DNA from: Methylobacterium sp. SyP6R
GTDB lineage: Bacteria > Pseudomonadota > Alphaproteobacteria > Rhizobiales > Beijerinckiaceae
Assembly (NCBI RefSeq): GCF_019216885.1
Contig: NZ_JAAQRC020000001.1
Location: 4,591,501 to 4,655,500 of the forward strand
DNA length: 64,000 nt
Reading direction: 5' to 3'
Under the pieces are notes generated by a model. It worked only from the letters and a program-made list of their open reading frames with translations. It had not been told where the DNA came from and did no database searches. This document shows positions 37,834 through 64,000 of this stretch, piece by piece; position 1 is the first letter of the stretch; the number at the start of each line of letters is the position of its first letter. The position numbers and the translations under genes were made by a program.

Positions 37834-39186
37834 ATGGCCGATTACTATCCCCTGCTCGCCCGCGCCCTCGAGGCCCTGCCCGACCGTTCGCCCGATCTGC
37901 GGCACACGGTCTATGAGCGCGCCCGCGCGGCGCTGATCGGTCAGCTCCGCTCCCTCGATCCGCCCCTGTCGGAGGCCGACATCGAGGCGGAGCGCGTCTC
38001 CCTCGACCGGGCGATCGCCCGGCTCGAGATCGAGCACGGCGGTCCTCCGGAGCCCGCGGCCCCGGAGCCGCCGCCGCGGGAAGCCCCCCAACTGCCCGAG
38101 GCCACAACGCCGCCGGGGGTGATGCCGCCGGACGCCCATGCGGCTCCGGAGACCGCCACGCTCTCGGACCCGTCCCGCGCTGCCCCTCCCGAGCCGCCGG
38201 CCCCGCACCACGCCGACGCCCTGCCGGAGGCCGGCCCGCCGGTGGAGCTGAAGCTGCCGCCGACGCGGCCGCGGAATCCGGAGCCGGTCGAGGAGCCGGG
38301 GACCACGGAGACGGGCCCTGCCGCCCCGCAGCGCCCGCGCCTCGACGTGGTGGCCCCCAAGCGCGACCGATCGCGGCTGGTGCGCAACGGCATCGTCGCG
38401 GCGGTCCTAGCGACGGTCGTCGGCGCCATCGCGGTCACCGCCTGGTCCTTGCGCGACAACCCCGCCGCCCTGCCGACGGGCTTTGCCGAGAACGGCCCCA
38501 ACCGTCCGGCCGAGGCCCAGGATTCGAAATTCGCCGACCGGGTCGGCGGCGAGCGGGTGCCCCTGGCCGCCTCGTCGCCCGCGCCGGCCCCGGCGGCCGC
38601 CGCGCCGCAAGGCAGCGCTCCCCGTCCCTCGCCGACGCCCGACATCGCGGTGGCGCAGCGCGGCACGCTCTACGAGGAGAATGGCGGCCAGGGCGCCGCC
38701 CCGAAGGCGATCCAGGCCCGGGTGGTCTGGCGCCTCGACGCCGTCAATGCCGGCCAGGGCCAGCCGCTCCAGACCGTGGTGCGGGGCACGGTCGACGTGC
38801 CCGATGCGGGCCTGAGCCTGGCGATGGTCCTGCGCCGCAACACCGACGCGACCCTGCCGGCGTCGCACATCCTCGAGCTGACCTTCACCTCGACCGACCC
38901 GAACCGCACCGTGCGCGATGTCGGCCTGATCCAATTCAAAGACGACGAATCCGGCCGCGGCTCCCCGGTCTCCGGCCTGCCGGTACCGGTGCGCGACAAC
39001 CTGTTCCTGATCGGCCTTTCGAACCTGAAGGCCGATATCGAGCGCAACACCGACCTCCTGCTCAAGCGCAACTGGATCGACCTGCCGATCCGCTACGCCA
39101 ACGGCAACCGTGCGATCCTGACCTTCGAGAAGGGCAATGCCGGCGAGAAGGTGTTGCGGGAGGCGTTTGAGCAGTGGCAGCAGTAG
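37834..39186 (+). CDS. Single-span membrane protein of unknown function
   Basis: A 450-residue protein. The cytoplasmic part (1-180) starts with a helical region (YYPLLARALEALPDRSPDLRHTVYERARAAL) that resembles a dimerisation or adaptor helix. A long Pro/Glu-rich linker (70-170), one membrane helix at about 185-206 and a periplasmic domain (270-450) with alternating strands follow. The N-terminal YERAR segment recurs in methylobacterial and rhizobial proteins of this layout, but no function is known. It follows purA closely, and base composition matches the flank. Confidence 0.78.
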   Translation: MADYYPLLARALEALPDRSPDLRHTVYERARAALIGQLRSLDPPLSEADIEAERVSLDRAIARLEIEHGGPPEPAAPEPPPREAPQLPEATTPPGVMPPDAHAAPETATLSDPSRAAPPEPPAPHHADALPEAGPPVELKLPPTRPRNPEPVEEPGTTETGPAAPQRPRLDVVAPKRDRSRLVRNGIVAAVLATVVGAIAVTAWSLRDNPAALPTGFAENGPNRPAEAQDSKFADRVGGERVPLAASSPAPAPAAAAPQGSAPRPSPTPDIAVAQRGTLYEENGGQGAAPKAIQARVVWRLDAVNAGQGQPLQTVVRGTVDVPDAGLSLAMVLRRNTDATLPASHILELTFTSTDPNRTVRDVGLIQFKDDESGRGSPVSGLPVPVRDNLFLIGLSNLKADIERNTDLLLKRNWIDLPIRYANGNRAILTFEKGNAGEKVLREAFEQWQQ

Positions 39187-39439
39187 AATTTTTTCGTCTG
39201 ATTTTGCCTCGATACCTCTCTCGCGTAAGGAATTTCGGGGCATCATACGACTTCCGGAGGATCGCTTACGGATGTCGTATCACAAGCCCGTGCGGCGTCT
39301 GAGTGAAGCCGATTTCCGCATCGCGAAGCGACCAGTCGAAAATCGTATCGCTGCGAAGGAGTAACACCTGACGAAATGTTTTGGTTTCGTCAGGCGCACC
39401 TACCTGAATTCGAGGCAAATTCAGAGGATGAAATTCAAC
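39187..39439. other. AT-shifted intergenic region with two hairpins
   Basis: Composition drops sharply after 39190. A perfect 10-bp hairpin (CCTGACGAAA, 39367-39376, with its complement at 39385-39394) and a 7-bp one (CTGAATT ... AATTCAG near 39404-39424) lie between the convergent genes and could terminate both. No gene is supported. Confidence 0.5.
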
Positions 39440-40579
39440 TTAGCATTTATCATCCCTGATTTCGGGCGCGTTGAGGCAAGCCCTGACAAATTTTCTATCT
39501 TCAATGGGTTGGTTGAAAACCAGTCCCGGACGACGTGACCAATTGATGTCATCAACAAAGCTCAATTTGACTTCGGAGTCTGCGTTGCAAGACCTCAACG
39601 GCGCTACCAACGGGCCGCTATTGTTCCAGCCTGCAAAATCGACATTAAAACAATAATTTTTTGGCATTGTCGCGGTGCTGTCATCAATAACAGCCAGAAG
39701 TGTATGTATAGTTCGAGATTTTCCCTTCCCGATCAACGTTCCACCGATCATAAGCTTGACCTGAATTCCAACGAAGAGGTCGACGGGACTGGAGCGCTTG
39801 ACATGTCCTGACCATTCTACAACAGTTCTTACACGATTGCGGCCATGATAATTTCTGTTTGCAAGCACGCCGCGCAGTTCATCCGGACTGAATACGACAC
39901 TGCGAACGTCAGAGAGAACATTCTTTTTTTCAGTTCGGCCACCCCCGTCAGCGTTCTCGATAAATATCGCTATTGTTTCCACCTGTCCCGCAGTATCCCA
40001 TTCGACTTTTAATGGATCCAAGTCTACGAGAATGCCACTCGAATCGGGGCCATTAGATGACACTGCGCCCGGCGGTCGTGGATTGACACTCAACGGCTCA
40101 GGTCTACTGGCGAAATAAATGCCGCATCCTATCAACAATGCACAAACAACAAGAACAGCAAACGTTATCGCATATTGAAGATATACTATGTGCCGTATGA
40201 CTTTGATATCTTGCTCGTTGACTGCCTTCCGCGCATCGGCATCCTCACGTAGTAATTTTTCAATGCGCGCCGGGGTCAGCGACGCATAATCCTTGACGTC
40301 CACGTTCGGGGCCGCACGCAGCTTTTCAATAATTGACTTTATTATATCTCCACCAATGCGATACTGACCAGCCCATAAATAGGCAAATAATCCCGCCACA
40401 CCCAGCACAGCGGGAAGTCCCTTTAGAAACGTAATCACGTCCATGGAATGCCCCAGAGTTGATGCGGCAGAATCGACGCATCCGAGTAGATGGTGCAGAA
40501 AAAGCGATATGACCAGCGTCCAGACGACATTTCGGCTGAAAACTCGCACCCAATAACGGACGCATGAATTTTCAAACAA
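39440..40579 (-). CDS. Orphan membrane protein of an AT-rich islet
   Basis: A 379-residue protein with three hydrophobic segments: about 15-33, 48-68 and 130-155. A charged cytoplasmic loop (75-125) and a large C-terminal domain (160-379) with several strands and five cysteines follow. No signal peptide, catalytic motif or known family is visible. Codon use is AT-richer than all neighbours, suggesting transfer. The start is taken as a TTG at 40579 with GAGGGGG very close upstream; an internal Met at residue 45 is another option. Confidence 0.65.
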   Translation of the reverse strand: MFENSCVRYWVRVFSRNVVWTLVISLFLHHLLGCVDSAASTLGHSMDVITFLKGLPAVLGVAGLFAYLWAGQYRIGGDIIKSIIEKLRAAPNVDVKDYASLTPARIEKLLREDADARKAVNEQDIKVIRHIVYLQYAITFAVLVVCALLIGCGIYFASRPEPLSVNPRPPGAVSSNGPDSSGILVDLDPLKVEWDTAGQVETIAIFIENADGGGRTEKKNVLSDVRSVVFSPDELRGVLANRNYHGRNRVRTVVEWSGHVKRSSPVDLFVGIQVKLMIGGTLIGKGKSRTIHTLLAVIDDSTATMPKNYCFNVDFAGWNNSGPLVAPLRSCNADSEVKLSFVDDINWSRRPGLVFNQPIEDRKFVRACLNAPEIRDDKC

Positions 40580-41387
40580 AACCCCCTCTACATCCGCATA
40601 ATGGCTTCATAAATTGCCGTGAGTTACATTATATTCAAAAAAATATAAATTAACCATAGATATAATAGACCAATATCACTATGATTGCGACCTTCAGGAC
40701 ATCGAGGTTCGAATTTGCCAAATCCGTCAAGGCAATCTTACCCAGCGTTAGAACGCCGCAGACAGAATTTTCGTTCCGGTTTGGCTGAAAGTGCACAGCG
40801 CGGCATGACACGCTTACTTACGGGTTCAATTTCACGGCAACCCGTTTTACCCGGACAATCTTACCTGAGGCAGCCCGCATTCGCTGCGATCCATGACTAC
40901 GCCGCTCTTCAGACCCTCCTGACAGTCGGTCTCCTCACCCCCCAGCCTTGACTTGCGCCGTCTCTGCTTCTTCGCCGGCAGCCCTGCGGCATGCCGATCG
41001 ACTTGACGATGTCCTGCTGCTACCGAGTGTGCGCTTCCGCGGCATCGCCGCTGCGCGGTCAAGGCGGTGCCGGTCGACACACTCGCCGTGACGCCAATCC
41101 TCTGGCCTCTCGTCGTCATCGGCCTCTTCCCGGTGCTAGATGTCCTGATCAGAGTCGATGAGCTTGCCGCCGATCGCAAAATCCGCGATGCGCATGCATG
41201 GCCACCTGCTTCCGGGACGGGTGGGTGAGCACGGTTCGGCATACTAAGCTGGAGCGCCGACCCGGACTCTCACGCTGGCCGGCGACGCCGATTCGTGTGA
41301 TCGCCCGCCCCACCGATGGCGGTCCCCGCCCTGACCCGCACCCCCATGACCCTCGCCCCATGACCCTCGCCCCATGACCCTCTCGCC
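40580..41387. other. Gene-poor region between islet protein and AEC transporter gene
   Basis: The first 100 bases are very AT-rich, including a run of A and T blocks near 40625-40680. From about 40900 composition returns to host GC. Several open frames exist but none has codon bias or recognisable product. The 3' end carries a 14-bp tandem repeat described separately. It may hold degraded sequence at the edge of a transferred islet. Confidence 0.5.
41346..41387 (+). repeat. Three tandem 14-bp units, each with an ATG, before the AEC transporter
   Basis: ATGACCCTCGCCCC occurs at 41346 and 41360, and a variant (ATGACCCTCTCGCC) at 41374, directly before the ATG at 41388. The unit length is not a multiple of three, so successive ATGs fall in different frames; 41346 is in frame with 41388. 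No ribosome site lies close to 41388. Confidence 0.8.
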
Positions 41388-50720: not shown

Positions 50721-50768
50721 TGGTGGGCCCGGTAGGACTCGAACCTACAACCAGACCGTTATGAGCGG
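50721..50768 (-). other. Attachment site: duplicated 3' half of a CAU-anticodon tRNA
   Basis: Read on the minus strand, the segment has the anticodon loop CTCATAA, the 3' half of its stem, a variable loop, a perfect T-arm (GTAGGTTCGAGTCCTAC) and an acceptor 3' strand ending GGGCCCACCA. The 5' half is missing: the bases at 50769 and beyond do not form the needed anticodon stem or D-arm. An integrase gene begins its reading about 120 bases further in. This is the classical footprint of an element integrated at the 3' end of a tRNA gene (Met or Ile2); the intact tRNA should mark the other end, past 64000. Confidence 0.85.
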
Positions 50769-50891: not shown

Positions 50892-52169
50892 TCACGCCGC
50901 TCGGCGGGTGAAGGCGTCCTCGATGTCGATGGTTTCGGCCTCGCGGCGACCGCCCTTGTCGAGCGCCCCGGCCGCCGCCTCCTGGAAGTCCGGGCGGTGG
51001 TGCCCGTGGACCTTCTCCAGCATCTGCACCGTCATGCCGAGGAAGGCGGCCGCCTGCCACAGGTCGACGCCGGCCTGCATCATCCAGGTCGCGCAGGTGT
51101 GGCGCAGCGTGTGGGGCGTGACGTCCGGCCCGAGCCCGGCCGCGGCGACGACGGCGGCGAAACCCTTGTTCACCTCGGCGACCGGCCGCCCCCGGAACTC
51201 GACGACGAACTCCGGCATTGTGCCGTCCTTCCGGGGCGTCCGGGCCCAGCGCCGGATGTGGGCGAGCAGCCGCTTCGGCAGGCGCACGGGCGGCTGGCGC
51301 TTCTTGGTCTCGGCCGCCCCGACGCGGCGCCGGTGGAACACCCCGCGCTTCAGGTCCACCCATCCCCGGCCTTCGGCGGGCGCGAATCCGGCCGAGCAGA
51401 TCGCGGCCGCGCGGGTGCCGGTGTAGATGCCGACCAGGAGGAAGCGGGCGAGGTGCCGGGCCGGGCGCTTCGACGTCGCGACGACCTTGCCCTTGTCCGG
51501 GCCGCGGTGGCGCGTCTGCATCTCGGGCATGTGCAGCATCGTCCGGAGCAGCCGGGCGGCCTCGTCGCGTTCCAGGTAGCGCTCCTTCGCCGGGCTCTTC
51601 TCGGGCAGCGGCACCTTCACCACCGCCCGCATGTGGCCCTCGCGCAGGTAGTGGTTCAGCGCCGCCTGCAGGTCCTCCAGTTCGCGGCGCACGCCCGCGT
51701 CGGTGACCGTGCGCGGGCGCTTGCCGGTCTTGTCGGGCTTGGCCGACTTCCAGGCGGTCTTCTTCCGCCACGTGCCGTAGGCCCGGACCGTCTTGCCGTT
51801 GACCTCGGCGACCGTCTTGCCCTGCCACCAGGCGCCAAGCTGCAGCAGCCGGGCGGCGGTCTTCTCGGGGCGCGCGTGCTTGGGCGCGACGTCCTCGCCG
51901 TAGACCGCGAGCACGTCCGTCACCAGGATCTCGCCCAGCGCCCGGTCCTCGTCGCGGGCCGGGTTGTGCTTCTTGGTCAGGTAGTCGGCGAGCGCCGGCT
52001 CAGCCGCGCCGCGATTGCGGTCAGGGAGCTCAGGGAGGACTGGGACGCCGGTGCCAACGCTGAGCGCTCCATCGCGGATGACCCAGACCGCCCGCTTCCG
52101 GAGCGACCCGGCCGGGTGGAACTCGGCTGGCTTCTCCCAGAGGCGGGCCCCGAGGGCGCGGCGCGGCAT
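50892..52169 (-). CDS. int: Tyrosine-recombinase-type integrase with apparent Tyr-to-His change
   Basis: A 425-residue phage-type integrase. The N-terminal part has LRKRAVWVIRDGALSVGTG, typical of rhizobial/methylobacterial integrases, then a SAM-like core-binding domain (about 120-210) and the catalytic domain with Arg in GIYTGTRAAAI and PHTLRHTCATWM. In this subgroup the catalytic tyrosine precedes GHHHPD (RVYGHHHPD); here the sequence is KVHGHHRPD, with His388 (codon CAC, 51006-51008) in its place. It lies next to the tRNA attachment site. The start was put at 52169; 52181 is also possible. The N-terminal coding overlaps the excisionase-like gene. Confidence 0.88.
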   Translation of the reverse strand: MPRRALGARLWEKPAEFHPAGSLRKRAVWVIRDGALSVGTGVPVLPELPDRNRGAAEPALADYLTKKHNPARDEDRALGEILVTDVLAVYGEDVAPKHARPEKTAARLLQLGAWWQGKTVAEVNGKTVRAYGTWRKKTAWKSAKPDKTGKRPRTVTDAGVRRELEDLQAALNHYLREGHMRAVVKVPLPEKSPAKERYLERDEAARLLRTMLHMPEMQTRHRGPDKGKVVATSKRPARHLARFLLVGIYTGTRAAAICSAGFAPAEGRGWVDLKRGVFHRRRVGAAETKKRQPPVRLPKRLLAHIRRWARTPRKDGTMPEFVVEFRGRPVAEVNKGFAAVVAAAGLGPDVTPHTLRHTCATWMMQAGVDLWQAAAFLGMTVQMLEKVHGHHRPDFQEAAAGALDKGGRREAETIDIEDAFTRRAA

Positions 52170-52450
52170 CCTTCTCTCCATTCCCTGATGATGCGACGCG
52201 TCACGACGATCTGCCTGCCCCACCGCTCCGGGCGCAGGTCCCCGCGCGAGATGGCCGCGCGCAGTTTGCGGACGTCGACGATGGGCCAGTACGTCGGCTG
52301 GGTGGCTCCGGGGAGCGTCACCGGCATGCACAGCGTCGGGAGCCAGACCGCCGTCTCCAGATCCAGCGGCGTATCGTCCTCGGCGGCGGCCGCCAGCGCA
52401 GGCCGGCCTTCGAAGACGTCCAGGCTGACGATGATGTCGGGAAGCGTCAT
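51977..52450 (-). CDS. Excisionase-like small DNA-binding protein
   Basis: The first 95 residues carry a compact winged-helix-like core (YWPIVDVRKLRAAISRGDLRPERWGRQIVVTRRIIREWRE), consistent with an excisionase that directs the integrase. The start MTLPDIIVSL at 52450 is clear. The open frame continues for a further 60 Ser/Arg-rich residues that overlap the integrase N-terminal coding by 193 bases, an unusually long overlap. The C-terminal part is low complexity and may not be conserved. The family call is from context and the helix pattern. Confidence 0.65.
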   Translation of the reverse strand: MTLPDIIVSLDVFEGRPALAAAAEDDTPLDLETAVWLPTLCMPVTLPGATQPTYWPIVDVRKLRAAISRGDLRPERWGRQIVVTRRIIREWREGCRAAPSGPASGRSQPSSTRPGRSGSGRSGSSAMERSALAPASQSSLSSLTAIAARLSRRSPTT

Positions 52451-55877: not shown

Positions 55878-56843
55878 ATGCTCTCCCTCCTCATCCTCGT
55901 CATCGCCGCCGCGGGGGTCGTCATCCCCGTTCTGGCGGCTGCCGTCGCAGCGTCCCGGGCCGCTACCGAGACGGTCCCGGCGGCTCCCGCGCCCCTCGGG
56001 GCGGCCCTGCCCGTCGCCGGCCTCGGCCTCTCGTGGCGCCGCCTTCGTGACGTGCGCACCGGCCGGGGGCCCCGGACGCTCTGGACGGGCGAAGGCGACC
56101 CCGCGCGCTATTCCCGCGCCTGGCGGCTCGTGAAGCCGGTGCTGCACGGGGCGGGCTTCTCGTGGGGGACGGTCGAGCGCACGGGCGGGGCCGTTGTCCC
56201 GCTGTGCTGGGAGGACGAGAGCCTGGGCGATCAGGCCGCCATCGACGCCATCGCCTCGGCAGAGGCCGCCCTTGCCGAGGATGACCGCCGGCTTGTCGAG
56301 GTCGAGGCCCGACGCGCCCGGGAGGCCGAACTCGAAGCCGAGCTCAACGGTGACGCCCAGCGCGCCGACATGCAGGCGTTGGAGACGTCGTTGCGAATCC
56401 GCGGATGGGCTTGGTCGCGCCGCAAGGCCGACATCGCCCGTGCCCTGCTGGCCGAGAAGCCCGGCCCCGGCGGGGCGCCCCGGGCGGCCGCGGCAAAGCT
56501 CGCACGCGAGATGACCGCCGAGGTCGATGCCGCCATCGAGGCCGTCCGTGCCAGGGTCGCGGCCAGCCCGCAGCACGACTGGCTAGCCAGGGCCGAGGAC
56601 CCCGACGTCCGCCGGGCGGTGCACTACGCCGTCCAGGTCCTGACGGACCTGGATCGCGACATGGCCACGCTCGACAACGCGCAGGGCTGGGGCCGCTCGC
56701 ACACGCACGCCGGGCACGTCCTGGCCGGGCTGCCCGAGCTCTCCGTCATAGAAGCCACGAACGCCTTGGCCGCCGTCTGGCGGCACCGGCGGCAGCTTCA
56801 GCCCGCGCTGCGCCAGCGCGTTTTCGGTTCGGAGAAGGCGTGA
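55878..56843 (+). CDS. Membrane-anchored helical protein upstream of the DNA methylase
   Basis: A 321-residue protein with one N-terminal membrane helix (LSLLILVIAAAGVVIPVLAAAVAAS, residues 2-26). The rest is mainly helical and charged, with a coiled-coil-like AEAALAEDDRRLVEVEARRAREAELEAELN near 135-165 and a C-terminal YAVQVLTDLDRDMATLDN region. No enzymatic motif is seen. An upstream in-frame Met at 55815 is possible, but 55878 places the membrane helix at the start. The stop overlaps the methylase start as TGATG. Divergent from the XRE gene. Confidence 0.68.
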   Translation: MLSLLILVIAAAGVVIPVLAAAVAASRAATETVPAAPAPLGAALPVAGLGLSWRRLRDVRTGRGPRTLWTGEGDPARYSRAWRLVKPVLHGAGFSWGTVERTGGAVVPLCWEDESLGDQAAIDAIASAEAALAEDDRRLVEVEARRAREAELEAELNGDAQRADMQALETSLRIRGWAWSRRKADIARALLAEKPGPGGAPRAAAAKLAREMTAEVDAAIEAVRARVAASPQHDWLARAEDPDVRRAVHYAVQVLTDLDRDMATLDNAQGWGRSHTHAGHVLAGLPELSVIEATNALAAVWRHRRQLQPALRQRVFGSEKA

Positions 56844-57691
56844 TGGCCGCGCCCGGAACCGTCCGCCCCCTGGTCCGCTGGTACGGCGGCAAGGCGCTCA
56901 TGAGCGCCTGGATCATCGCGAACCTCCCGCCGCATAGGACCTATGTCGAGCCATTCGGGGGCTCGGCCGCGGTGCTCCTTCGGAAGCCGCGGAGCGAGGT
57001 CGAGGTCCTCAACGACACCGACGCGGAGCTCGCGAACCTCTACCGCGTCGTCCGGGACCCGGGCCTATGCGGGCAACTCGGCATGTTGTGCGCGATGACG
57101 CCTTTCTCGGCCGCCGAGTTCCGATTGGCATGCGAACCCGTCGAGGGTGACCGCCCGGTCGAGCGCGCCAGGCGGCTGCTCGTGCGCCACTACATGGGCC
57201 GGGCAAGCGACGCCCGCCGGCCCGCTTCCCGCACGGGGTTCCGCAGCTACTCGGGCCCGGGGCGCAGCGTGCCCGCCCGTGACTGGTACACGTACAGCGA
57301 CGGCATCGGGCAGATCGGCGCCCGGCTCCGCGACGTCGTCGTCGAGAGCGCGGACGCCGTCGACGTGATGCGCCGGCACGACCGGCCGGACGCCCTGCAC
57401 TACGTCGACCCGCCCTACCTGCCTTCGACGCGGAAGGACCCGAGCAGCGGCTACCGCGTCGAACTCGACGAGGCAGGGCACGGCCGACTGCTCGACGCTC
57501 TCCTCGGCCTGAAGGGGGCCGTCGTCCTCTCGGGCTATGCCTCGCCCCTCTACGACGAGGCCCTCTCCGGGTGGCGGCGCGTCACGCGGGAGGTTCGCGA
57601 TCAGGCCATGGGCGTCCGCGAGGAAGTGCTCTGGATTTCGCCCCGTGCCGGCGCCGTCGCGCGTCAGCCCGACTTATTCAACGCGGCCTGA
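56843..57691 (+). CDS. D12-class adenine-N6 DNA methyltransferase
   Basis: A 282-residue enzyme methylating adenine in DNA, Dam-like family. The SAM-binding YGGK near residue 14, EPFGGSAAVLL, LNDTDAELANLYRVVRDPG and catalytic DPPY in YVDPPYLP are all present, in the usual order. The length is normal for D12 enzymes. There is no restriction gene next to it, so it is an orphan methylase, often found on phages and integrative elements to protect their DNA or regulate genes. Translation is coupled to the upstream membrane protein. Confidence 0.92.
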   Translation: MAAPGTVRPLVRWYGGKALMSAWIIANLPPHRTYVEPFGGSAAVLLRKPRSEVEVLNDTDAELANLYRVVRDPGLCGQLGMLCAMTPFSAAEFRLACEPVEGDRPVERARRLLVRHYMGRASDARRPASRTGFRSYSGPGRSVPARDWYTYSDGIGQIGARLRDVVVESADAVDVMRRHDRPDALHYVDPPYLPSTRKDPSSGYRVELDEAGHGRLLDALLGLKGAVVLSGYASPLYDEALSGWRRVTREVRDQAMGVREEVLWISPRAGAVARQPDLFNAA

Positions 57692-58480: not shown

Positions 58481-59179
58481 CTGTCGAAAATCTGGCAGAT
58501 GATATATCGTAATGCCGAGCCGTTCCGGGTTCAACCCACCGGGACTTGGCGCTGGGGGCAAGGTCACCACCGAGGAGATTTTTGTTTGCCTGGGACTCGA
58601 TCCGTACTGACTGAGCTAACCTTGCCGGAAGTCCAGCGGATGAGGTTGGATCTCCTACCTGGGGGTGTGCACCTTACTCTCCCGCGATGCGCTATTCCTA
58701 GAGTGTGGGTTCGCTCGTTACTTCATCCGAGAGGTATCCCCCAACCTGCCCGCCGCCCTTGCGGCTCCGCCGGCCTCGCCCCAGGGCGCCAACGCTCGTT
58801 CTGAGGCGACCGCCGTCCTGGTCCCAGCAGGCCTAAGGCCCGGACGGGCTGCACCCTGCTTCGCCTGCTGCAAGAAGGAGAGGGGCTTGGCCGGCCTGTC
58901 GCCCGGCGGTGGGCGTGGCTCTGCGGTCTGGTGGCGGACGCGTGCACTGCTCCGCTGGTTGCATTTCGGTGCTAGTCAGCTGCACGCCTTAAGGATAGCT
59001 TGTGGCACCAAGTGGGATGCATCGGAGGAGTTGGTTCTCTTGGTCAGATATTCAGCTACTTCGCACAGCGGATATTCGAGATGCTTCGGGAAAAATATAA
59101 TATAATATTATTCATATTATAATAACAGGATGATCGTTGTAAGTTGCGCACTTAGAAAGCAAGTACGGGCGAGGCACAA
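58481..59179. other. Region without supported gene, upstream of the helicase
   Basis: About 700 bases. Open frames exist on both strands but lack codon bias. A tRNA-like fragment lies near 58587-58625. From about 59090 the sequence turns very AT-rich, with a perfect 8-bp hairpin (TATAATAT, 59101-59108, and its complement at 59114-59121), probably part of the helicase promoter. A GAGG lies shortly before the start at 59180. Confidence 0.55.
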
Positions 59180-62100
59180 ATGAACGTCTTTGATCTCGAT
59201 GCAGCACTCGTCCGTGATTACGAGCAATTTGCCCGCTCGTTCACATCGATCCGAGCGCCCGATATTCGAGCTGCAATAGATGGACTGTACGAGCGTGGAA
59301 CATTTTGGCCTGAGGCGCTAATCAGCATCAACCCACATTTTGAGCAGGGTGAAACCGTTGAGTCTCTCGCGCATGAGGGATTGATTCATCCGAACACAGC
59401 CAACGTCTTCCGCGTCAGTGGCGGCCCAATCAGGCTTCACAGACACCAAACCGAAGCAGTGGCCAAGGCAGCGGCAAAGCGCAGCTTTGTCGTGACGACT
59501 GGAACAGGGTCGGGCAAGTCGCTGTGCTTCTTTGTGCCAATCATTGATGCTGCAATACGCGCTCGTGCACAAGGGGAAGCGCCGCGCACTCGAGCGATTA
59601 TTGTTTATCCAATGAACGCCCTTGCTAATAGTCAGTTGAAGGAACTAGAAAAATTCATCGGACAGTCTGGATTGTCCGACGAAATGCGTCCTACCTTTGC
59701 GCGATACACTGGGCAAGAGAACGCAGAAGAGCGTCAACGTATACGCAATGCAAAGCCTGATATTATTCTTACTAATTTTATGATGCTAGAACTGTTGATG
59801 ACTCGGCAGAATGACCTCGACCGTGCAGTCATCGGGAATGCGCACGGGCTTGAATTTATAGTCCTTGACGAGTTGCATACCTATCGCGGCCGTCAAGGCG
59901 CCGACGTTGCGATGTTAGTGCGACGTTTGCGCGACCGGCTCTGCCCCGACCGTGCGCCAATCTGCATCGGCACCTCAGCCACTATGGCTAGCGAAGGTGA
60001 CGAGACTACGCGCGCCTCTGCCGTCGCGGCCGTCGCCTCCCGCCTTTTCGGGACCCCCATCGCGGCGAGCGCAATTATTGATGAGAGCCTCGCCCGCGCA
60101 ACTAACCCGGCGCTGAATGCCGCCTCATTCGGAGATGCCCTCGGTTTTGCCGTTGATGCCGAACTACCGCTCGCACTAGACGATGCGGCGCTGGTCACGC
60201 ATCCGCTCTCTGTTTGGATCGAACTTGAGATCGGCCTCTCCGACGGCCAGACCTTTTCTCGACGCCCACCGACTACATTAAGCGAGGCAGCGGCGCGCCT
60301 GGCGGCGAAAACCGGCCGTAGCAAAGAGCGCTGCCGTGAGCAGATCGCCGCCATGCTGACGATGATGAGCCTGCCGGCCGAGACCCGAGGGGGCACCGGC
60401 GAGCGAGCCTTCCTGGCATTCAAGCTCCATCGTTTCATCTCAGGCGCAGGGCACGTTCATGCGACGCTCCGCCAGCCTGACCGCCGCATCACCCTTGACG
60501 GCCAGCTCTTCGACCCCAAGGACCCGGGCGCGCGCCTCTATGCTACGTATTTTTGCCGCGCCTGCGGCCAAGAATATCATCCAGTCGCCCGTATAGAGGA
60601 GGACGACGGCGTACGTTTCATCCCCAGGTCCATCGACGAGCCGATCCTCGCCGAGCCCGACGAAGAGGCACGTGCCGGCTACCTGATGCCGGAGCCGCAG
60701 GACGACCCAGACTTCGCCTTCGGCGGAAACGCGGAGGACTATCCGGAAGACTGGACCGAAACGCGTCCGTCCGGCCGCCGTCTCAAACCCGTCCACCGGA
60801 CCCACGCCCCCCGGCGCGTCTGCGTGAATGCGGACGGTGCGACCGGCGCAGCCGGGCGGCCTGCATGGTTCCTGCCCGGCAAATTTCGGTTCTGCCTCGC
60901 CTGCGGGGACCAACCGGCTGCGCAGGCGCGAGAAATAAACAAGCTCGCTGGGCTTTCATCTGAGGGCCGAAGTTCAGCCACGACGCTCCTGGTCTCCAGC
61001 ATGCTGCGCTGGATGAACCGCGAGAGTTCACCGCCTGCTAAGGAAAAGCGCAAGCTCCTCGGCTTTACCGACAACCGCCAGGATGCGGCGCTACAGGCCG
61101 GCCATTTCAACGATTTCCTGTTTGTGACCCTGCTGCGGGGGGCGACGCTCGCGGCGGTGCGAGCCGCAGGGCCCGAGGGTTTGGCCGAGGAAGACTTCGG
61201 GCGCAAGGTGCAGCAGGCACTCGGCTTCATCGGTGAGCGCGAGGCGTTGCGCCCGGAATGGATGTTGGACCCTGGGACCAAGGGAGCGGGCCGTCACGAG
61301 GCCGAGCGTGCGCTTGGCCGCGTCCTTGCTCACCGGGTCTGGGCCGACCAGCGCCGCGGCTGGCGCTTCACCAACCCCAACTTGGAAGATCTTGGACTCG
61401 TTCGGGTGGAGTATGTCGGACTTGACAACCTCATCGCAGATGAGCGGTTCGAGAAAGGCCCTCCTGAATTGCGCGCCGCATCGCCGGAGCAGCGGCGCGA
61501 GGCGTTGCACATCCTGCTCGACGCGCTCCGGAAGGGGCTTGCGGTCACGGCCGACGCACTCGAGGGCCAGGTCATTGAGGCGACAGCGAATGCGTCCCGG
61601 ACCTACCTCCGGGAGCCCTGGGCAATCTCGCTGCAGGAGACACCCCGACACGCGGCAGCGCTGATGCTTGATGCGCCACGCCGGGACGTCGCCGGGCTGC
61701 GCGGAGAGCCACTCATCGTGCGTGGCGGGCCACGCAGCAGTCTCGCGCGGCGGCTCGGCCGAGAGGAGATCTGGTCGAAGCGGCTCGATGGGAAAACCTA
61801 CCTCGCGGTTGTCGAGGCGCTGCTCGCCGCGGCAGACGAATACGGGCTTGTGCGGGCTGTCCCGACGAGCTTCGACGCCGAGGGATGGCGTCTTGTCTCC
61901 GGCGCCATCCGCATCGTCGTGGCGAAGGGCCGGCCCGATAGCCGGCGCCCCAACCCCTACTTCGTTGCACTCTACGAGACCCTTGCCGGATCGTTGCTCT
62001 CCGGTGAGAGCATGCTGTTCGGCTTCGAGGGCCGTGAGCATACTGCACAGGTTGACCAAACCCGGCGCCAATGGCGCGAGGCGCGCTTCCGCTGGGAGGA

Positions 62101-64000
62101 AGCGGACCGCGCGTATCTTAGTTCGGAGCTGGGCCGGCTCAAGGACGACGTGCGGGAGCCGGACGTCTTCCTGCCGGTGCTGTTCTGCTCGCCAACGATG
62201 GAACTCGGCGTCGATATTTCGGCGCTCAACGCGGTGTATCTGCGCAACGTACCGCCGACCCCGGCGAACTACGCTCAGCGGTCTGGTCGCGCCGGACGCT
62301 CGGGACAGGCGGCCCTGGTCGCCACCTACTGCGCGGCCCAGAGCCCGCACGATCAGTATTATTTCGCTAAGCCCGAGCAGATGGTCCGTGGCGTGGTCCG
62401 ACCTCCGGCCCTCGACCTCGTCAACCGGGATCTCGTCGTGGCCCATCTCCACGCCGTATGGCTGGCTGAAGCCGGCGTGGAACTCGAACCCGACATCCCG
62501 CAGGTGCTGGACCTAGCGGACGAGCGGCTGCCGGTGCGGGCGAGCATCACCATTGCCCTATCCGATCCGGCCCTGACAGTCCGCGCCGCAGCAGCAATGC
62601 GCCGCGTGCTCGATGCCATTCTGCCGGAACTTCAGGTGGCGCGGCCGGCTTGGGCTGCAGATCTCGAGGGCTTTGCGGCCGAGACCGCGGCGCAGGCCCC
62701 GCAGCGGTTTTCCGAGGCGTTCCAGCGCTGGCGCGACCTCTATGACGGCGCTCGCGCCCAGCTCATCGACGCGAACCGCCGCTCAGAGATGCACGGGCTG
62801 CGCGCCGAGGAGCGCAAGGAGGCGAAGATCCAACAAGCGCAGGCGAACGAGCAGCTCTCGCTCCTTGAGCGCGGGGCCGCAAGCGGTGGCTCGGACTTCT
62901 ATACCTACCGCTATCTTGCAACTGAGGGCTTTCTGCCTGGTTACAATTTTCCGCGCCTGCCACTCTACGCCTATATCCCGTCGGTCGGCACTGGCACCAG
63001 AGGGGCGTTCCTGCAGCGGGCGCGCTTCCTGGCCATCGCTGAATTCGGCCCGAGGAGCTTGATCTACCACGAGGGCCGCGCATACCGTGTCGCGAAGGCA
63101 AAGCTCCCGGCCGGTGTTCGCGAGGAAGGCCGCCTCGCGACCCGCACGCTCTACGTCTGCGATGCCTGCGGCGCCGGGCACGCCGAGCACGAGCAGGAAC
63201 GCTGCCATGTCTGCGCAGCGCCGATGGCAGGCACCCATCCGGTGCGCAATGTCCTGCGCATTGACAACGTCGAGACCCAGGCCGCCGAGCGTATCACTGC
63301 CAACGACGAGGAGCGCCAGCGCCAGGGCTTCGACATCCGCACCATTTTCGCGTGGCCGAAGGCGGGGGAGACGCCGGACGCTATCGAGGCTGTGGCGCAG
63401 GCCGACGATGCATCGGTGATGCGGCTTGACTACGCCCCACGCGCCAACATCAGCCGGCTAAACCTGGGGCTGAAGCGGCGCGCGGCGAAGGGCACGTTCG
63501 GCTTTGGCATCGATCCGGTCAGCGGCCGCTGGAGCCGCAGCCCGGCCGACGAAGCGGACGCGGACGGGCCGCCCGACGGTCCGTCCCTCCAAAGGGTCGT
63601 GCCGATTGTCGAGGACAACAAGAACGCCCTGTTGCTGCGCCTGCCGGAGAGCCGCATCTCCGAGACGGCGATGGCGACGCTCCAGCACGCGCTCGCGCGG
63701 GGCCTGAGCCTCGCCTTCCAGCTGGAGGAGGGCGAGGTGCTGAGCGAACCGGTGCCGCGTCGCGATGAACGCCGGGCAATCCTCGCCTTTGAGGCGACAG
63801 AGGGAGGAGCGGGCGTGCTCGGGCGCCTCGCCTCCGAGCCCGAGGCCCTCGCCCGTGTTGCTCGTACAGCGCTCACGCTTATGCATTATCCCGACCATGC
63901 GGCAGCGGTGGCGGCGCGGGATCCATTGTTGCTCGCTGAGGATGCCGAAGCCGCCTGTGTGAAGGGCTGCTACCGCTGTCTGCTTTCCTACTACAACCAG
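59180..64000 (+). CDS. Large DEAD/DEAH-type helicase with C-terminal DUF1998/MZB domain (runs off window)
   Basis: At least 1607 codons, open to the last base. Residues 85-270 form the first helicase domain: the Q-motif-like LHRHQ, Walker A GTGSGKS (108-114), the DELH box (230-233) and SAT (about 266). The second domain holds [11 protein letters not shown] and the arginine-finger SGRAGRSGQ (about 1033). Zinc-type cysteine pairs lie at about 459 (CRAC), 572 (CLAC) and 1327 (CDAC). The C-terminal end carries the DUF1998 signature [15 protein letters not shown]. This composite layout is shared by DruE of Druantia, DpdJ and MrfA-like repair helicases. GC is lower than in the host. Its system cannot be named without the genes downstream. 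Confidence 0.88.

Follow-up and report, generated by a model that had tools for sequence, protein, structure and literature searches.

We describe here an operon that begins near the end of a 64,000-nucleotide stretch of the Methylobacterium sp. SyP6R genome (6.4 Mb contig NZ_JAAQRC020000001.1, positions 4,591,501 to 4,655,500; the whole stretch is hereafter called the window) and continues in the genome sequence downstream. It comprises four genes, g1 to g4, encoding a large YprA-family helicase of superfamily 2 (SF2), a SNF2 helicase, an N6-adenine methylase and an HNH endonuclease. As judged from gene content and order, the operon probably has the organisation of the anti-phage system ARMADA Type I, of which it would be an HNH variant with an eroded Vsr domain. 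In the main text of its description (Bell et al. 2025, PMC12458937), the gene order of ARMADA Type I is YprA homologue, BrxHII-like helicase, PglX-like methylase, and the helicase of Types I and II is presented there with a C-terminal Vsr nuclease predicted to be active. In the system described here, the Vsr domain has lost its catalytic residues and a separate nuclease gene closes the operon.

The helicase and the genes that follow it

The frame of g1 opens with the ATG at 59180 and runs for 1607 codons up to the window end at 64000, its stop being found only in the downstream genome sequence, where the protein attains its full 1726 residues. The original prediction of a protein of more than 1600 residues was therefore right, as was its reading as an SF2 helicase with zinc knuckles and a DUF1998 end: the Pfam domains DEAD (residues 88-272, E 8.7e-26), Helicase_C (997-1042) and MrfA Zn-binding/DUF1998 (1501-1601) all score above their family cut-offs, and CxxC pairs occur at residues 459, 572, 1327, 1342 and 1597. 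The helicase motifs are a Walker A TGTGSGKS at residue 107 and a DELH at residue 230. A protein search (E <= 0.001) found a single copy of g1 in its own genome.

ATGA overlaps join g1 to g2 and g3 to g4. The catalytic motifs of the operon proteins are intact, with GIGKT (126) and DEAH (228) in g2, DPACGSG (507) and NPPW (773) in g3, SHIVPW (171) and NGLLL (189) in g4. The second protein belongs to the SNF2/RapA helicases and scores 627 bits with the PADLOC model of DpdE, 240 with DrmD and 183 with BrxHI/II, while g3 matches Eco57I and N6_Mtase of Pfam and DrmMI of PADLOC (214 bits). The order g1-g2-g3 is identical in all 79 related loci that have the three genes, the duplicates L051 and L117 being counted. 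It had been anticipated either that partners would follow after 64000 or that the system would be a different one; both turned out to be true, since g2, g3 and g4 follow and the system resembles ARMADA Type I. The search for partners beyond 64000 thus yielded a nuclease, the HNH_2 protein g4, but no Druantia partner among the six proteins scanned (59180-74255). The region upstream of g1, proposed to be an AT-rich promoter, is indeed AT-rich (Table 1), but a promoter scan found no forward promoter in it.

Table 1. Positions of the operon genes and of the other features of the element (window numbering; GC, guanine plus cytosine content)
Feature	Position	Strand	Remarks
attL, 48-bp tRNA-Met fragment	50721-50768		Exact repeat of 95669-95716
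Tyrosine integrase	50892-52331	-	Just inside the left end of the element
Phage-type adenine methylase of the element	56843-57691		phrog_56; PADLOC MTase_II
Operon leader, AT-rich	58981-59179	+	GC 0.427, against 0.711 for 1-58480
g1, YprA-family SF2 helicase with DUF1998/MZB	59180-64360	+	1726 aa; open reading frame and Pfam; 59180-64000 in window
g1 tail, DUF1998 end and eroded Vsr/DUF559-like domain	63968-64357	+	From CYRC, residue 1597; 63968-64000 in window
g2, SNF2 helicase, BrxHII/DrmD/DpdE-like	64357-67113	+	918 aa; beyond window
g3, PglX/DrmMI-like N6-adenine methylase	67120-71055	+	1311 aa; beyond window
g4, HNH_2 endonuclease	71052-71822	+	256 aa; Pfam; beyond window
Second 48-bp repeat copy, inside intact tRNA-Met gene	95669-95716		Exact repeat; beyond window

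Erosion of the Vsr domain and the HNH gene

To compare helicase tails, we used the best 80 of 148 relatives from one scan of a genome collection, together with loci from genome samples and plasmids. The tails of these related loci are of two kinds, intact and eroded, and that of the window's g1 is of the eroded kind. A tail was called intact by the pattern PDF/ADF...DGPxH, which includes the residues D, D, G and H. All eight intact tails scanned match DUF559 (Pfam, E <= 0.1), which we take to be a Vsr-like nuclease family, and none of the 67 scanned eroded tails does. Over its full length, the domain can be aligned between eroded and intact tails (hhalign E 8.4e-38 when the Cys anchor is included, 2.1e-13 when it is left out). 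The acidic residue E, present in all 22 intact tails, is scattered among the eroded ones, all 78 of which have a deletion that removes the segment with the H; a search of PDB sequences with the intact tails gave no match. As read from its sequence, g1 has a Vsr domain whose catalytic residues are lost.

An intact Vsr and the HNH gene exclude each other in the scored loci. Among the 87 loci scored for both states, the combination of intact Vsr and HNH does not occur, 21 loci having an intact Vsr only, 61 an eroded Vsr with HNH, and five an eroded Vsr only. Outside the lineages of L173 and L176/L177, 61 of the 63 eroded loci scored have retained HNH, and it is in this retention, across at least seven phyla, that the strength of the exclusion lies (Pseudomonadota, Acidobacteriota, Verrucomicrobiota, Myxococcota, Gemmatimonadota, Thermodesulfobacteriota and Campylobacterota). 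In those other lineages, a separate restriction-type partner adjoins two of the three eroded loci without HNH. L176 is followed by a DpnI_C/AAA_5 protein and then by a McrBC-domain protein, L173 by an EVE-AAA_5 protein and then by a DUF2357 protein with a PDDEXK_7 nuclease domain; the third, L177, is a close relative of L176 and likewise eroded without HNH.

Two duplicates were dropped beforehand, L051, which is identical in sequence to L025, and L117, which repeats the locus of L066, and L036, L067, L074, L085 and L171 were dropped for a split or broken helicase frame, whereas the near-identical pairs L029/L052 and L035/L054 were retained. The HNH state could not be determined in 21 rows (contig or locus end), five of which (L152-L156) are short copies of counted loci. 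For L031, L041, L045, L049, L058, L069, L075, L077, L080 and L084 it was obtained by whole-genome searches, which in these ten cases place the gene behind the helicase with contig and strand in common; for L164, the opposite end of the circular record (L169) supplied it. Of the intact plasmid loci L165, L166, L167 and L174, the flank only was examined, and in L165 the record stops 2 kb past the methylase. In L053, L120 and L178, matches to the HNH family lie solely on other contigs.

The only PDB relative of the HNH family profile is VcaM4I (E 8.8e-36), whose catalytic H224 is aligned with H172 of g4. As described in PMC7897488, VcaM4I is a stand-alone, modification-dependent type IV enzyme of the EVE-HNH kind, with an alanine variant of H224 as inactive control. 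As a DNA-cutting enzyme, g4 is probably active. Its first 125 residues or so match no Pfam family. The HNH relatives P0008, P0067 and P0109 have 393-397 residues and a second domain, PF11697.

We also searched for HNH in 385 genomes of the class (E <= 1e-40), where at most six candidates per genome were scored and counts are lower bounds. There were at least seven matches in at least six genomes, and at least four of them are full-length. In the genome studied here, in G999 (at 11 kb) and in G933 (at 7 kb), a full-length HNH follows the helicase on its own contig and strand. The fourth among the matches listed is in G139, a genome without the helicase, where it adjoins a 102-residue fragment of g2 (L202, G139:C1:464000-483900); this locus is probably what remains of a decayed operon. 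The full-length HNH family looks tied to the operon, at least in this class.

Two trees of the helicase without its tail were built, both with long-branch warnings. The IQ-TREE tree holds 59 selected rows, namely 17 of the 21 intact loci, 34 of the 61 eroded with HNH, all five eroded without HNH and three outgroups. There, the 34 HNH rows plus L016 and L038 make up a single clade of 36 rows (SH-aLRT 99), the intact rows, a wider set than in the other tree, stand near the base, and two further Vsr losses fall outside the HNH clade. The FastTree tree (93 rows) groups its intact rows in one clade flanked on either side by eroded rows, the eroded label needing two changes. The IQ-TREE tree contains 36 of the 63 eroded loci and the FastTree tree 56, none being absent from both; the former is preferred because of its model and sampling. 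A repeated joint loss of Vsr and gain of HNH, drawn from the FastTree tree, was set aside, the HNH form being a single clade in IQ-TREE. One swap seems likelier than several. In these trees of the related loci collected here, g1 stands with Vsr-intact loci that share its gene order, and separately from the three longer homologues that serve as outgroup.

Several points weigh against the exchange of a fused Vsr for HNH. Since D, D, G and H define the intact state, only the residue E and the deletion independently show the erosion. In L016 and L038, inside the HNH clade, Vsr is eroded and the genome has no HNH of the family. The preferred tree has all HNH loci in one clade, so that the exclusion could go back to one event, and an independent-pairs test of it gave three pairs and p = 1. 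Finally, McrBC genes also lie behind the intact-Vsr locus L166 and a McrB family gene is annotated near intact L167, so that McrBC beside eroded loci is no proof of compensation.

An alternative, which we consider unlikely, is that the operon is the same ARMADA-like one and HNH only a co-travelling accessory, for example a type IV-like enzyme of its own, the helicases defending without nuclease. The HNH gene starts past the methylase end in 32 of 47 measured loci, often with other genes between; together with the stand-alone, modification-dependent nature of VcaM4I, its nearest solved relative, and with its lack in L016 and L038, this would fit an accessory. An accessory would however hardly be expected to persist in 61 of 63 eroded loci, the L173 and L176/L177 lineages apart, and to be seen in none of 21 intact ones, nor would its full-length members listed in the class, at least four, all be at intact or remnant loci of the operon.

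The slot between methylase and HNH behaves as if it takes cargo. An ATPase of about 650 residues is encoded there in L008 (22396-24339) and in 18 other loci (e.g. L014, L020, L066), that of L008 showing a weak match to DUF2326 and 69 bits with PADLOC LmuB. This ATPase goes with a longer methylase, is present with both eroded and intact Vsr, is reduced to a fragment in L038 and is absent from the window's operon. In L028 (22139-24161) and L023, the slot has an AAA_21 ATPase and a 254-residue protein without Pfam match, a pair that is presumably Septu-like; L022 has the ATPase only.

A proposed mechanism

Compared in blocks of 100 residues with its nearest relative, that of L006, g3 displays only 27-31% identity in residues 1000-1200 and 50-88% outside, the final block of 11 residues being left aside in these ranges. 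The contrast is milder with five other relatives (30-46% against 37-86% elsewhere). The GC content falls to 0.37-0.43 over about residues 894-1193, with about 0.7 around. This variable region looks like a swapped recognition cassette, and it is mainly because of it that we favor a sorting of self from non-self DNA by methylation.

Taken together, the four genes probably form an anti-phage restriction operon that discriminates DNA by its methylation, with two translocases and an HNH enzyme cutting in trans; the defence function, the methylation-based discrimination and the role of HNH as cutting effector are what we infer from the proteins encoded. In the model we propose, g3 would mark self DNA at a site set by the exchangeable recognition region, as its family and the cassette pattern suggest. 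Driven by ATP, g1 and g2 would load on unmarked incoming DNA and travel along it, a translocation deduced from their motifs, which ARMADA Type II has been shown to require (main text of PMC12458937). The HNH_2 enzyme g4 would then cut in trans, in place of the fused Vsr nuclease to which this step is assigned in other ARMADA helicases; its active site, its position in the operon and its exclusion with intact Vsr argue for this role. By way of speculation, the decayed Vsr domain could have been retained in the helicase as a docking site for HNH.

From there, ARMADA might be seen as a chassis of two translocases with an interchangeable cutter, in which the HNH subtype traded Vsr for HNH and docks it on the dead Vsr domain, whereas McrBC-type or DUF2357-PDDEXK proteins serve elsewhere. 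We put this forward as a tentative generalisation, more doubtful than not. The point mutants listed in a passage of PMC12458937, where the E. coli Type II system was validated against phages, concern helicase and methylase motifs and not Vsr. That a clade has lost the fused nuclease but kept a separate one suggests that a nuclease is required. Moreover, the predicted cutter is here a gene of its own, and so separable from the helicase. A search with the helicase only, for which DruE is the top match, would misfile such an operon.

Genomic setting and known systems

The operon had been placed on an integrated element, and this is borne out by a 48-bp repeat at either end, one copy lying in tRNA-Met, and by a tyrosine integrase. 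The element extends over about 45 kb between the repeats. In G620, of the same genus, the left flank and the tRNA are continuous (query 1-301, 72% identity, among the matches listed), as expected of an empty site; the remaining matches listed cover it partially only. Phage records gave one weak partial match only. The distribution of g1 in the genus is patchy, the helicase being found in 7 of 111 genomes, at 52-54% identity in the other six.

The adenine methylase upstream of g1, described at first as an orphan that the helicase follows, is a real gene, but it is no member of the conserved operon: a relative of it was found in none of 99 related loci, of which 60 include 3 kb or more of sequence before the helicase. 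The operon carries its own methylase, g3, downstream of g1. Five other proteins of the element match no Pfam family, and one of these five matches a PHROG of unknown function. Behind the operon, genes at 72012-73541 (minus strand), 73722-74255, 74812-75885 and 75915-76469 (locus L003, beyond the window) lack a Pfam family, 73722-74255 matching MAD8 weakly (E 2.1e-4); these are possibly further defence genes. In the same locus, a piece of DDE_3 transposase lies inside the element at 77150-77725 (minus strand, beyond the window). Elsewhere in the window, a frame of 379 residues with hydrophobic segments (39440-40579, minus strand) stands in a region of low GC content (about 0.50 at 39001-41000, surroundings 0.71) and looks acquired.

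This setting bears on the case of a mere housekeeping repair helicase of MrfA/YprA type. Although g1 shares DUF1998 with MrfA and matches it (PDB 6znp, E 1.2e-25), a gene so patchily distributed in the genus, carried by a tRNA-integrated element and standing in the same conserved row as a methylase and a nuclease, is extremely unlikely to serve repair only. The housekeeping neighbourhood that would have marked an MrfA-type gene was looked for downstream, and no MrfB-like gene is present in the six proteins scanned; g1 heads instead the helicase-SNF2-methylase row in 79 of 79 loci.

The initial assignment to a Druantia-type or related defence system holds as far as a defence-type helicase on an element is concerned, but not for Druantia itself. 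Like Druantia, the operon has a YprA-family helicase, and DruE models are the top PADLOC matches of g1; the best of them is in pieces (281 bits, against 547 bits nearly full length for the homologue L134), and the operon partners are a methylase and a SNF2 helicase. No Druantia partner occurs among the six proteins. With DISARM Class 1 it shares relatives of DrmD (SNF2) and DrmMI (adenine methylase). In DISARM, however, DrmA and DrmB are separate, whereas helicase and DUF1998 are fused in g1; DrmD reaches 280.5 bits for an NCBIfam cut-off of 610, and no DrmC/PLD gene is found in the six proteins, nor any gene of DruH type. Dpd fails likewise, with DpdJ at 83.7 bits for a cut-off of 800 and DpdE at 187.1 for 500. 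Considering these matches and their shortfalls, a Druantia or DISARM system is very improbable.

VcaM4I and g4 have related HNH domains, their H224 and H172 corresponding in the alignment, but the EVE domain of the former has no match in g4. Nearer to the exchange proposed here are the BREX-related Type-1 systems as given in the main text of PMC12839542, where the helicase has a fused active PD-(D/E)XK nuclease in 79% and the remaining systems have other nucleases nearby, HNH included. A fused helicase nuclease is there replaced in some loci by neighbouring ones, although that main text does not mention YprA, DUF1998, ARMADA, DISARM or Druantia.

ARMADA types are defined in the main text of PMC12458937 by tree clade and gene set, and 'HNH' appears in it once, within the title of a reference. 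Among the titles and abstracts listed by the literature searches, none describes an HNH partner of YprA/ARMADA systems, although the subtype may be listed in the supplements of PMC12458937. ARMADA Type II, as presented in that main text, differs from the operon in having BrxHII-PglX ahead of YprA and then a RelE-GajB fusion, an order absent here. With Type I, in the same source, the operon shares the YprA-family DUF1998 helicase, the gene order and content and the mobile-element setting; it departs from it by the erosion of Vsr in g1 and by the separate HNH_2 gene at its end.

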